Assembly (NCBI GenBank): GCA_018065265.1 | Contig: JAGHTP010000010.1 | Location: forward strand, 39,738 to 103,737 | DNA: 64,000 nt | Source: Candidatus Cryptobacteroides aphodequi | GTDB lineage: Bacteria > Bacteroidota > Bacteroidia > Bacteroidales > UBA932 | Direction: 5' to 3' | Shown here: positions 8,469 through 63,222 of the stretch, in pieces | How positions within the stretch are numbered: position 1 is the stretch's first letter | Layout of the letters: every line of letters begins with the position of its first letter | Notes under the pieces: generated by a model | The model's input: only the letters and a program-made list of their open reading frames with translations | Database searches by the model: none | Told to the model about the DNA's origin: nothing | Translations under genes and position numbers: made by a program

Positions 8469-11465
8469 TCAGAAATTATAAGTTGCGCCGACACAGACTG
8501 TCCTGTACTTCGGCTCCGAGCCGACATTGAGTTGAAGTTTGTCTGCATTGGGACCGAGCATCAGGCAGTCCTGAGCTTTGAGGTATATCTTCAAATGATC
8601 TCCGGGGACATTATATGTCAACTGAATATCAGGAATGGCGAAATGGTTCGTGCTGCCAATCCAGTAGCTGGATTTGACATTATTATTCGCATTTCCCATA
8701 GTTGTCAGCCTTGGATATCCTTCTGAGAGGACATTGACCGAATACTTCTTTTCCCCATAAACATTGTAGTAGTCTCCGTTGAAAAGGGTGCTGCCACCTG
8801 TCTGGGCGAACAGATACGCCCACAAATTAAAGCGCTTCCAACTGATGTCCACATTGAGACCATAATTGAATCTTGCGTGCGAGTGGCCGATTTCTTTCAT
8901 ATCATAGGCATCGATTACCTTGTCTCCGTTAAGATCGGCATATTTTATATCTCCGGCCTTGACTGTTCCATAAGAAGGGATTACATCCATTCCGTCAATC
9001 TCTTCCTGAGTATAGAGTCCAGTGGCTACAAGGCCCCAGATTGCATCTGTTGACGATCCGCGACGACGGTAATACTCCATACCTTCGCCATAGTCAAGTT
9101 CATCGAAGGCGAGCACGGCTCCCTTGTAGAATTTGACATCAGCACGCAGGGCGAAATGCCAGTCGCCATAGGAATGTGTCCACCCGATACGCAGTTCGGC
9201 GCCGTCAGTTTTGTGACTGCCGTAATTCACGTAGGGCAGGAACGAATCGCCGCCCACATAGAAAGGAGACGTCGTAGACAGGCGCACTGGTTCTCCTTTG
9301 CGTTTTGTATGGAACAGGGCGGCCTCAATGGCAAGCGTCTTGTCGAACAGATAAGCTTCCGCGCCGAGCGAAATGTCGTGCTTGTGTATCCAGCCAAGAG
9401 AAGCGTTTCCGGCTGTTATCGAAAGCAGATTGTTGCTTCCGGCACCGTCGGCATAGGAATATGTTCCATTCTTCAGGTACGTGTTCTGATACAGATGGAA
9501 AGAATCGAACTCGCTGCTGATATCGGTACGGCTGTCAGCAAGGGACGCCTTGATCTTCAGGAAATACGGGTCATCACATACAATCCATCCGGCGCCGAGA
9601 CTCTGTGCGTACCCCCATCTGTGCCCTCTGGAAAGTTTCTGGCTTCCGACCAGGGCTGCGCCATATTCGGCGATGAATTTCCTGTCATACATATAATTCA
9701 CCCTGGCGCCATAATTGAGCGAGCGTTCAGTGTACATCGATCCGCTCTCCTTATATGTCCCCAGAATCGAGTTCGCAACTGCCTTGATGTCGTGAACGCC
9801 ACCGAAGATCTGGTCATAAGAGAGGACATTGTACCATCCCGTACGGCGGAAGAACGCCACATCCGAAATTTTCTGAGCGCCTACAAAGTCATTGACACCA
9901 ACCTGACTGATGGCATAGGTCCCGTCATCAAGCAGGGTCGGAGTATATACGGCATAACTGTTTGCCTGTGTGACAGTATAGCGGTTATAGTTGTCCGATC
10001 CGAAATATGTCTTGAATTTCAACCCTTCCACCAGACTTTCGAGATTGACATCGATTCCGGCATTGATTTCCGCCATCCTGTCCATAGAATTCGAATAACC
10101 ACCGAGATACAGGTCTCCATAAATATTCTGGGTAAAAGTCATATCTCCACCAAGAAGGCTGTTCCCGAAAAGGACCGACCTCTGACTTCTGGCATCATCG
10201 ACCAGATACTGGTACTCGGGATTGATCCGGTCGATTGGAATCAGAAGAGGCTGCGCATTGATTCTGTTCTGCGATGCCATCTTCCAGAAATTCAGATTCT
10301 TGTAATTGACTCCGCTGTATGCGTTGAAAATCGATGAAGCAGCGAGATTGATGCTTATGAATTCGTTGAGTTTGACATCGACGTTACCACGCATATTAAA
10401 GCAGTTGGTCCGTTGATTGTCCGCCTGTCCTCCTTTAAGAATCGAACTTGTATTGTACCATCCGAGATTGACATAGTACCTGGTAACGTCATTGCCACCA
10501 GCGCAGTCGGCGGACACGCGGTGCTGAGGTTTGAACGAACGCAGGAATTCGGAGCTGTAATAATCAATCTCGGGATACATCACAGGATCAGAGCCGCTTC
10601 GCGCAGCCTCTATGTCTTCATAAGAGTATTTCTTCGACAGTCCGTCATTCTCGAGCGCCTCATTGTACTTGATCATATAGTCTGCAGTATGCAGATAGCC
10701 GGGATAGCTTTTCGGTATCCCGAAGTCGCTTTCGTAACGAATATGTATATCACGCTTCAATGACTGACCGTGTCTGGTGGTGATCATTATGATGCCGGCA
10801 TCTGCGAGAGTGCCATAGAGAAGACGTGAAGCGGCGTCCTTGAGAATGGTGATTTCCTCAATCTCATCAACATTTATCTTGTCGGAATAGGCTGTGAACG
10901 ATGAGCCTCCGTCACGTACAAGGCCATCCACGACGACCACGTACTTTTCGCCACGGATATCATTGGAGCCGAAGGTTCCGAGTCCTTCCGCCTCAACCAG
11001 ACTCTTCCAAAGCCTGTCATTGAACTTTCCGTCCAGATCGGACGGGCGGATTCTTTCAACTCCGTTGACAATCCGGAGCTGCTCGAGTTCACCGAAAGGC
11101 ACATTCACCCTGGCATTCTGTCCCAGCTGGAACAACGTGGAGTCGAGCACGATGACTCTGTCGGAGGCCAAGTTCGGAAGGAATACGTTTCTTGTCTCGA
11201 ACGCCGGATGCTCGATGCAAATGTAATCTGCGGCACCGGTTCTGACACTGAACTCGCCATTTTCAGAAGTCCGTGTAACCTGAGTTCCTTCCATAGCCGT
11301 GACAACGGCGCCCTGGACCGGCCGGCCGCTTGCATCAACGACTTTTGCCGACCAGGTAGCCACAGCCTTCTTTCCCTTTTTGGCAGCAGGAGCGGCATAT
11401 AGCGGAGCTGTGCAGAGAGCTGCCATCAAAATGGCAAGCACAGTCATTTTCAATGTTGTCTTCAT
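8469..11465 (-). CDS. SusC/RagA family TonB-linked outer membrane protein (divergent N-terminus)
   Basis: CarboxypepD_reg-like region, plug VDEIEEITILKDAASRLLYGTLADAGIIMITTRHG, long beta-barrel; immediately upstream of susD-like gene. Confidence 0.92.
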   Translation of the reverse strand: MKTTLKMTVLAILMAALCTAPLYAAPAAKKGKKAVATWSAKVVDASGRPVQGAVVTAMEGTQVTRTSENGEFSVRTGAADYICIEHPAFETRNVFLPNLASDRVIVLDSTLFQLGQNARVNVPFGELEQLRIVNGVERIRPSDLDGKFNDRLWKSLVEAEGLGTFGSNDIRGEKYVVVVDGLVRDGGSSFTAYSDKINVDEIEEITILKDAASRLLYGTLADAGIIMITTRHGQSLKRDIHIRYESDFGIPKSYPGYLHTADYMIKYNEALENDGLSKKYSYEDIEAARSGSDPVMYPEIDYYSSEFLRSFKPQHRVSADCAGGNDVTRYYVNLGWYNTSSILKGGQADNQRTNCFNMRGNVDVKLNEFISINLAASSIFNAYSGVNYKNLNFWKMASQNRINAQPLLIPIDRINPEYQYLVDDARSQRSVLFGNSLLGGDMTFTQNIYGDLYLGGYSNSMDRMAEINAGIDVNLESLVEGLKFKTYFGSDNYNRYTVTQANSYAVYTPTLLDDGTYAISQVGVNDFVGAQKISDVAFFRRTGWYNVLSYDQIFGGVHDIKAVANSILGTYKESGSMYTERSLNYGARVNYMYDRKFIAEYGAALVGSQKLSRGHRWGYAQSLGAGWIVCDDPYFLKIKASLADSRTDISSEFDSFHLYQNTYLKNGTYSYADGAGSNNLLSITAGNASLGWIHKHDISLGAEAYLFDKTLAIEAALFHTKRKGEPVRLSTTSPFYVGGDSFLPYVNYGSHKTDGAELRIGWTHSYGDWHFALRADVKFYKGAVLAFDELDYGEGMEYYRRRGSSTDAIWGLVATGLYTQEEIDGMDVIPSYGTVKAGDIKYADLNGDKVIDAYDMKEIGHSHARFNYGLNVDISWKRFNLWAYLFAQTGGSTLFNGDYYNVYGEKKYSVNVLSEGYPRLTTMGNANNNVKSSYWIGSTNHFAIPDIQLTYNVPGDHLKIYLKAQDCLMLGPNADKLQLNVGSEPKYRTVCVGATYNF

Positions 11466-61950: not shown

Positions 61951-62883
61951 TTAATCTACGCTGACGCGATAAAGGCCATTCTCTATTTTAAATATCGTCA
62001 CGGGAATAATGTCATATCCTCGTTGGTCATCTGCCTTAATTAATTGGAACGTAGGAATCGTGTTAATTACAATGTGATCAATTAACTTCGCTTTTTGTCC
62101 ACAACATGGTTTAAATATGTACACATTTTCCTCACTAGATATTATTTCATCGACATTGATAAATTCTATCCCCAACACTATTCTTTTTACGGCTAATACC
62201 GAATATGTAAACCGCCGATTATGGCATGATTCCGGATTTACTCCATCTATCTGATGTCCAAAACTTTCGAAGTCCTGTCCATTGGGATTTGGTACAAGAA
62301 TACGCCATTCATTTTCGTAAGACCAAACGGAATGCTTCACGGTACACTGTATTGACATCGCAACACTAGCAGACCGGTCAGGGATACAAACTTTAGGTAA
62401 ACACTCCACATAATTAATTGGGAACGGACCGTAATATCGAAAATCAAACTTCCCAATATCAAACTCGACACATATCCCTTTCTTACCAGAATAGTGCGCC
62501 CACATTAATTCGTTAACACACGATGTTGCGAGAGAAATGATCCCACATTTTCGGTATTCTTCGGAATAAAATAAATCTTGCGACATCTTTTTGATCTCCT
62601 GGGGCGAAAATGTATTACACATTTCATTGTACTGATTACCAAAGAGGGCTTTTTCATCCTCAAAATGAATAATATTTTTATCACAGTCAAACGAATCATT
62701 TAACTGATAAGGATGGCTCGCATAAATGTACGATGACGTTATTGCATCAATACTATTCGGGGACAGTGAATAATACTTGTAAAATGACGAAGGGAAGGGA
62801 TGTGCAACCTTATCGTATTCTATAGAGAACGCTTCATTGTCTAAATAGATCATATCCCCTATTTCAACCTTCTTTTGACACAT
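61951..62883 (-). CDS. DUF2971 family protein
   Basis: FYKYYSLSPNSIDAI; ELMWAHYSGKKGICVEFDI; HSVWSYENEWRILVP. Confidence 0.75.
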   Translation of the reverse strand: MCQKKVEIGDMIYLDNEAFSIEYDKVAHPFPSSFYKYYSLSPNSIDAITSSYIYASHPYQLNDSFDCDKNIIHFEDEKALFGNQYNEMCNTFSPQEIKKMSQDLFYSEEYRKCGIISLATSCVNELMWAHYSGKKGICVEFDIGKFDFRYYGPFPINYVECLPKVCIPDRSASVAMSIQCTVKHSVWSYENEWRILVPNPNGQDFESFGHQIDGVNPESCHNRRFTYSVLAVKRIVLGIEFINVDEIISSEENVYIFKPCCGQKAKLIDHIVINTIPTFQLIKADDQRGYDIIPVTIFKIENGLYRVSVD

Positions 62884-62917
62884 TTTAAAACATCATCCCA
62901 CCTCGGCCCCCACCGAA

Positions 62918-63017
62918 CGAAAAAAACAAAACAAAAGACGTGGGAGATTACAGAGCTTATCTCGACCTCGGGCCTTGGCTGCCTTCACTAGAGATAAGCA
63001 ACGTAAGGCCCACGTCT
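62918..63017 (-). ncRNA. long imperfect hairpin followed by U-tract: candidate small RNA or leader attenuator/terminator upstream of DUF2971
   Basis: Minus strand AGACGTGGG..GCTTATCTC-(27 nt)-GAGATAAGC..CCCACGTCT then TTTTGTTTTGTTTTTTT; two perfect 9-bp stem blocks plus a GTAA/TTAC pairing. Confidence 0.6.
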
Positions 63018-63214
63018 AAGATAATATATGGGGTCACACGCGCAGAGACGCGCGGAGAGCATAATCATCTGATGTGGACGTTCCGTTGCCGATATCTTCC
63101 TAGTGAAATCAAATTGCCAAGTTTGAGGTCAGAAGATAAACGTCAAGTAACGTCTTCAAATATGTCCGTCACAGCTAGCAGAAAAAAAGTTTTTCGGCCG
63201 CCTCTGTGCCACCC

Positions 63215-63222
63215 CAAAGGTA
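63215..63222 (-). promoter_or_regulatory. candidate -7 element TACCTTTG reading toward DUF2971
   Basis: Matches TAnnTTTG; -33 element weak. Confidence 0.3.

Follow-up and report, generated by a model that had tools for sequence, protein, structure and literature searches.

The window, as we call the whole 64,000-nt stretch of DNA that was analysed, is the end of contig C14 of a 1.48-Mb draft genome (G000). An operon-like run of genes occupies its minus strand from 62883 to 55639 and encodes a DUF2971 protein, a 225-residue protein, a DUF4384-like protein (below cut-off), two related 484-residue proteins and a weak sigma-70 region 2 protein. The DUF2971 gene (61951–62883, ATG at 62883) is the first of the run; its 310-residue product matches PF11185 in Pfam with E = 3.5e-7. 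Ahead of this gene, the initial annotation had described a hairpin, a T-tract and the ATG, and all of these elements are indeed present on the minus strand. The outer arms of the hairpin are AGACGTGGG (63017–63009) and CCCACGTCT (62944–62936), and the inner arms are GCTTATCTC (62999–62991) and GAGATAAGC (62963–62955). Together with a TTAC/GTAA pairing, these 9-bp arms enclose a 27-nt apical loop (62990–62964). The U-tract UUUUGUUUUGUUUUUUU (62920–62936) adjoins the stem and is interrupted by two G in this copy. Folding of the hairpin alone gives a moderate gain over shuffled sequences (z = −2.45).

A DNA search of 100 relatives returned two good matches, in genomes G032 and G007. Aligned with these, the sequence shows conservation that reaches far upstream of the hairpin, as far as about 63157, over a total of 245 nt, and the genes downstream differ among the three loci despite the conserved RNA. 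Each of the three full-length sequences forms a single long rod (−92, −94 and −74 kcal/mol) by pairing its 5′ half with its 3′ half, whereas in the hairpin described above the arms of the 3′ half pair with each other. The conserved core of the rod lies at 62931–63160 on the minus strand (positions 1–233 of 233 of the covariance model, 208.5 bits; minimum free energy about −92 kcal/mol). It is preceded by a 5′ hairpin, P0 (CACAG...CUGUG, 63170–63208, minus), identified by fold and covariation, and a 3′ hairpin that covaries (UUCGG-UGGGGG-CCGAG, 62901–62918, minus) follows the U-tract. The conserved RNA spans about 63208 to 62901, so the boundaries first drawn were too narrow, and the rod measures about 230 nt rather than the 82 nt proposed. 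The original hairpin makes up only the last third, on the 3′ side, of a structured RNA of roughly 320 nt and represents one of two alternative local folds.

To determine how widely this RNA occurs, we used two covariance models. The first, built from the window, G032 and G007 sequences, found copies in 40 of 300 genomes of the family-level taxon. The second, built from 25 copies, found them in 78 of 393 genomes of the order, representing 44 of 206 genera. Across the whole class, the second model hit 12 of 395 genomes; just three of these lie outside the order, all with weak scores (53–61 bits), and by these scans the RNA is essentially missing elsewhere in the class. The draft genome of the window holds a single copy. 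Twenty-four genomes were searched with more candidates: at E ≤ 1e-6 they hold between 0 and 18 copies, and the richest has about nine that score at least 70 bits, its weaker copies being less certain. One named carrier is a plasmid of Phocaeicola massiliensis (Bacteroidales), whose copy shows 72% identity; this carrier and the Bacteroidota type of promoter point to Bacteroidales as the order of the window. No phage matched the leader RNA and no viral contig matched one pattern, and a phage origin was rejected on these searches. For alignment, we collected 96 full-length copies. The 9-bp arms of the original hairpin covary among the copies, so that a lack of covariation in homologous loci, which would have counted against its first description, was not observed. 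Comparative data, namely these arms and the 96 full-length copies, confirm at the level of sequence that the hairpin is far beyond chance.

The same letters of this RNA can pair in two ways. In the two-hairpin fold, hairpin 1 (63077–63154, covariation) is closed by helices a–a′ (GACGUU/AACGUC, 63154–63149 with 63082–63077) and b–b′ (UAUCUUC/GAAGAUA, 63138–63132 with 63099–63093). Hairpin 2, the original hairpin and the terminator stem of this fold (62936–63017; sequence, fold and covariation), is closed by d–d′ (GACGUGGG/CCCACGUC, 63016–63009 with 62944–62937) and e–e′ (GCUUAUCUC/GAGAUAAGC, 62999–62991 with 62963–62955). Two further pairings join the halves. Segment c1 (63116–63130) pairs with f2 through GACCUC (63130–63125) with GAGGUC (62969–62964) and CUUGGC (63121–63116) with GCCAAG (62979–62974), and c2 (UUCACUAG, 63100–63107) pairs with f1 (CUAGUGAA, 62991–62984). 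All of these segments are read on the minus strand.

A MAFFT alignment of 19 copies is blind to structure and provides a cleaner test of these pairings than alignments fitted to the rod. In it, where the strongest helices first came to light, c1 pairs with f2 of its own copy at −20.6 kcal/mol compared to −10.8 kcal/mol with those of other copies, and c2 pairs with its own f1 at −8.9 compared to −2.7 kcal/mol (0 of 5000 permutations in both cases). RNAalifold on this alignment gave only the two local hairpins. The larger alignments, of 25 and 96 copies, were fitted to the rod model and so lean to the rod. Within them, the rod shows 217 double-change cells against 67±6 in shuffled alignments (25 copies) and 1472 against 430±21 (96 copies), with slid controls at 220–308; 91.7% of its cells are paired in the 96 copies, including 98.6% for c1–f2 and 95.2% for c2–f1. 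The local helices are also paired in this rod-leaning alignment (a–a′ 96%, b–b′ 82%, d–d′ 95%, e–e′ 92%), and their double changes all exceed those of shuffles. The pairs also favor one strand: GU and UG cells number 909 compared to 90 for AC and CA, an excess indicating that the selected molecule is the RNA of the minus strand.

Sequence comparison documents both pairings, often at the very same positions. In the quartets we checked, both folds are satisfied at the same four columns in 66–91 of about 95 copies. At columns 10/123/280/394, for example, 91 of 93 copies satisfy both, and C-G-C-G changes jointly to U-A-U-A. Four segments that are complementary in two ways form a four-way arrangement capable of branch migration, a design that would suit a switch or a single compact junction; the rod and local pairings could be parts of one four-way-junction fold. 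On average, the rod gains 12.7 kcal/mol over the parts folded separately, a value that leaves out the loop–loop pairing of the two-hairpin form.

We also examined the surroundings of the RNA. The sequence TAnnTTTG is the −7 promoter box of the Bacteroidota. In the window, the matching box TACCTTTG sits at 63215–63222 on the minus strand, placing the expected transcription start near 63209. Counted within 150 nt upstream, TAnnTTTG occurs 27–142 nt from the rod in 89 of 96 copies, compared to 8 of 90 for a control window of sequence. The most frequent arrangement among the copies has TTG 19–20 nt before the box, an element that is not clear in the window copy. Many copies have a 5′ hairpin with conserved letters between box and rod, and at five loci (L110, L111, L113, L121 and L122) these letters are TAGCTAGCCC...GGGTTGGGTGGGC. 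Across 83 copies, the arms of the 5′ hairpin pair with their own partner at −18.3 kcal/mol, compared to −10.1 with others' (0 of 5000 permutations).

On the downstream side, a gene in the same orientation follows 90 of the 96 copies, often with its ATG 40–60 nt past the rod, which leaves little room for another promoter. A further TAnnTTTG lies between rod and ATG in only 10 of 90 copies; most of the genes lack a second promoter box of their own. The U-tract is present in all copies, with a mean of 7.75 U in 10 nt (96 copies) compared to 2.8 at a control position. A generic scan for sigma-70 promoters and terminators did not detect the leader RNA because its loop exceeds the limit of the scan.

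Conservation continues past the U-tract. The stem of the 3′ hairpin pairs at −6.1 kcal/mol with its own partner and −3.95 with others' (0 of 5000). The G-rich loop of this hairpin pairs with letters immediately 5′ of the 3′ arm of the terminator, as in GAUUCCC/GGGAAUC (−9.2 own, −7.1 other, 0 of 2000; three controls with neighbouring stretches were null). In the window copy the loop's partner is ambiguous and falls in the CUCCC region (62946–62940). Because the rod leaves this partner free and d–d′ takes up part of it, the loop pairing fits the rod and competes with the terminator. Polymerase reaches the 3′ hairpin only once termination has been decided, so the hairpin cannot influence that decision, and it may serve translation or stability instead.

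The initial annotation had left the choice between a small RNA and a leader. The promoter box, the co-oriented gene and the hairpin past the U-tract favor the leader, and the RNA has the features expected of an attenuator: an upstream promoter with no separate one for the gene, a GC-rich hairpin followed by a U-tract, and a competing antiterminator pairing. We therefore lean, with moderate confidence, toward a bistable, cis-acting family of attenuator leaders in the Bacteroidales that adopts two exclusive folds. The message would start at the TAnnTTTG promoter about 50 nt upstream, making the whole RNA the 5′ leader of the operon. In a putative OFF fold, each half would close on itself (a–a′ and b–b′; d–d′ and e–e′), and d–d′ with the U-tract would act as an intrinsic terminator that ends transcription before the gene. 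In the ON fold, the halves would zip into the ~230-nt rod (a–d′, b–e′, b′–e and a′–d), so that a′ captures the upstream arm of the terminator and RNA polymerase continues into the operon. The 3′ hairpin would complete the read-through message, its loop pairing the stretch that the rod leaves single-stranded, and the c1–f2 and c2–f1 helices, common to both folds, would serve as a hinge. A ligand, a protein or the growth state could be the trigger that tips the balance between the folds in a regulon of surface and secreted proteins. We infer termination, read-through, the regulated alternation of the folds, the assignment of the ON state and the trigger from this arrangement. With somewhat less than even confidence, we extend this model to an order-wide class of bistable leaders that would jointly control, in answer to a signal, a surface-protein regulon of gut Bacteroidales by branch migration between terminator and rod, and that would constitute a new riboswitch class or the target of an RNA-binding protein.

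The main rival to the attenuator assigns the 3′ hairpin a role in translation or message stability: the rod and the 3′ pseudoknot would govern ribosome access or protect the message, and the U-tract would be a linker. The hairpin lies near the ATG, and its conserved loop pairing can coexist with the rod, in which the partner of the loop is free. However, a GC-rich hairpin directly adjoined by a conserved U-tract is the classic layout of a terminator, and the preserved, competing local folds would go unexplained. On balance, we consider this reading unlikely.

Less probable still is an independent small RNA, running from promoter to U-tract and acting in trans or on a protein, with the gene expressed by leaky read-through. 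The RNA does have its own promoter box and a terminator-like end, and Bacteroides thetaiotaomicron possesses multicopy small RNA families such as FopS (PMC11697453). Nevertheless, a co-oriented gene lies close behind nearly every copy (90 of 96), and a covarying hairpin past the U-tract that pairs into the rod would be needless for an RNA that had already terminated. FopS itself measures about 65–70 nt and, apart from its single-stranded 5′ seed, comprises just a terminator hairpin (PMC11697453). FopS and GibS of Bacteroides resemble the present RNA in being a multicopy Bacteroidales family with sigma-ABfr-type promoters and a terminator, whereas the leader RNA has a ~230-nt rod that forms part of a 5′ leader; size and architecture rule out membership of that small RNA family (PMC11697453).

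Patchy presence, several copies per genome, a palindromic make-up and the proximity of some copies to contig ends would also suit a mobile inverted-repeat element (a MITE or an insertion-sequence end) that carries a promoter. We regard this as very improbable: copies sharing a genome differ from one another (62% identity) about as much as those from separate genomes do (55%), their orientation to genes is fixed, and the GU pairs are strand-specific. Conserved parts on both sides of the U-tract likewise argue for a functional RNA, and a recent mobile repeat in particular is disfavored by the divergence within genomes. A DNA-level cruciform or a known housekeeping RNA (SRP, 6S or tmRNA) would account for the rod shape but can be dismissed almost entirely, given the lack of an Rfam match over the element, the SRP RNA on another contig and the ten-fold excess of GU over AC.

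The conclusion that the hairpin matches no RNA family held in our scans of Rfam 15. No match in the window reached the gathering score, none covered the element at E ≤ 10 (a single spurious SNORD115 match lay outside it), and 20 other loci yielded no match to the leader, only tRNAs and one distant SAM-II; these three scans rule out any Rfam family. SRP RNA had come under consideration because of GAAGGCAGCCAAGG in the loop, but the genome's own SRP RNA is on contig C27 (47 bits, over cut-off). A search for tRNA and tmRNA found none.

Among known systems, the leader RNA is predicted from its sequence to behave like an attenuator or riboswitch-type leader. It shares with attenuators and riboswitch platforms a promoter-proximal leader, a terminator-like stem with a U-tract, and an exclusive pairing that removes a terminator arm. 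It differs from them in a much longer rod made from the two halves of the leader, a self-symmetric four-way covariation, a conserved hairpin and loop pairing past the U-tract, and very diverse downstream genes. The put and EAR processive antitermination elements are structured leader RNAs ahead of operons for surface or exported products. They resemble the present RNA in this placement, but here a terminator is built into the element. Bacteroidales-1, Bacteroides-1, Bacteroid-trp and 6S-Flavo are likewise structured Bacteroidota RNAs found by comparison (PMC2864571; Rfam), and all scored below threshold on the window and the 20 other copies; the Rfam scan covered those Bacteroidota motifs of PMC2864571 that are in Rfam. 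In the literature on Bacteroidales attenuator leaders, the supplement of PMC8040213 aside, we found no account of this RNA. That survey of the human microbiome describes palindromic Bacteroidetes candidates of 80–132 bp, for example HMP2_4205 and HMP2_1032, which are similarly palindromic and terminator-like. They differ from the leader RNA in size, and partial overlap, and with it an earlier partial detection, is possible (PMC8040213).

The genes behind the RNA are varied. Among 91 downstream proteins, we identified BspA-type leucine-rich repeats (10), CarbopepD_reg (5), PEGA (3), outer-membrane barrels (3) and DUF2971 (3), along with glycosyltransferases, TerB and others. Clustering of all nearby open reading frames also placed leucine-rich-repeat proteins behind ten copies. 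Many first genes encode signal-peptide or lipoprotein-like N-termini, and the common theme is surface, secreted and envelope proteins. The great diversity of these genes and the lack of a metabolic pathway among them suggest no ligand. Only in three genomes (the window, L161 and L186) does DUF2971 directly follow the RNA as first gene, which rules out the DUF2971-specific leader originally envisaged. Relatives of DUF2971 in named genomes are only distant proteins and were of no help for the RNA.

Bacteroidales dominate the human and ruminant gut, and to our knowledge few cis-regulatory RNAs have been described for them. The leader RNA occurs in about a fifth of the sampled genomes of the order, some of which have at least nine clear copies, ahead of surface, secreted and envelope genes. 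If the attenuator reading is true, it would add a regulatory layer for the bacterial surface. Its two folds, kept by four-way covariation, also provide an unusual test case for RNA switching.

Several downstream genes recur between loci. In ten genomes (L090, L091, L109, L119, L129, L133, L135, L136, L158 and L189), a helix-turn-helix protein of 70–90 residues (MHIGxLI...NVYKIF) begins 5–59 nt past the end of the model, and it may be an autoregulated factor of the leader RNA or a frequent cargo. By eye, the 225-residue product of the second gene in the window resembles the first gene product behind L132 and L176, and other genes of the window operon have homologues behind L111, L114 and L127. 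Short peptides with double-glycine-like motifs (...LFGGKKP, ...VKGGSICLL) are encoded behind the leader at L115 and L116, and an ABC transporter of the type exporting such peptides follows another copy in the same genome (L125). The flank of L115 also contains a SAM-II riboswitch (9783–9842) that is unrelated to the leader RNA.
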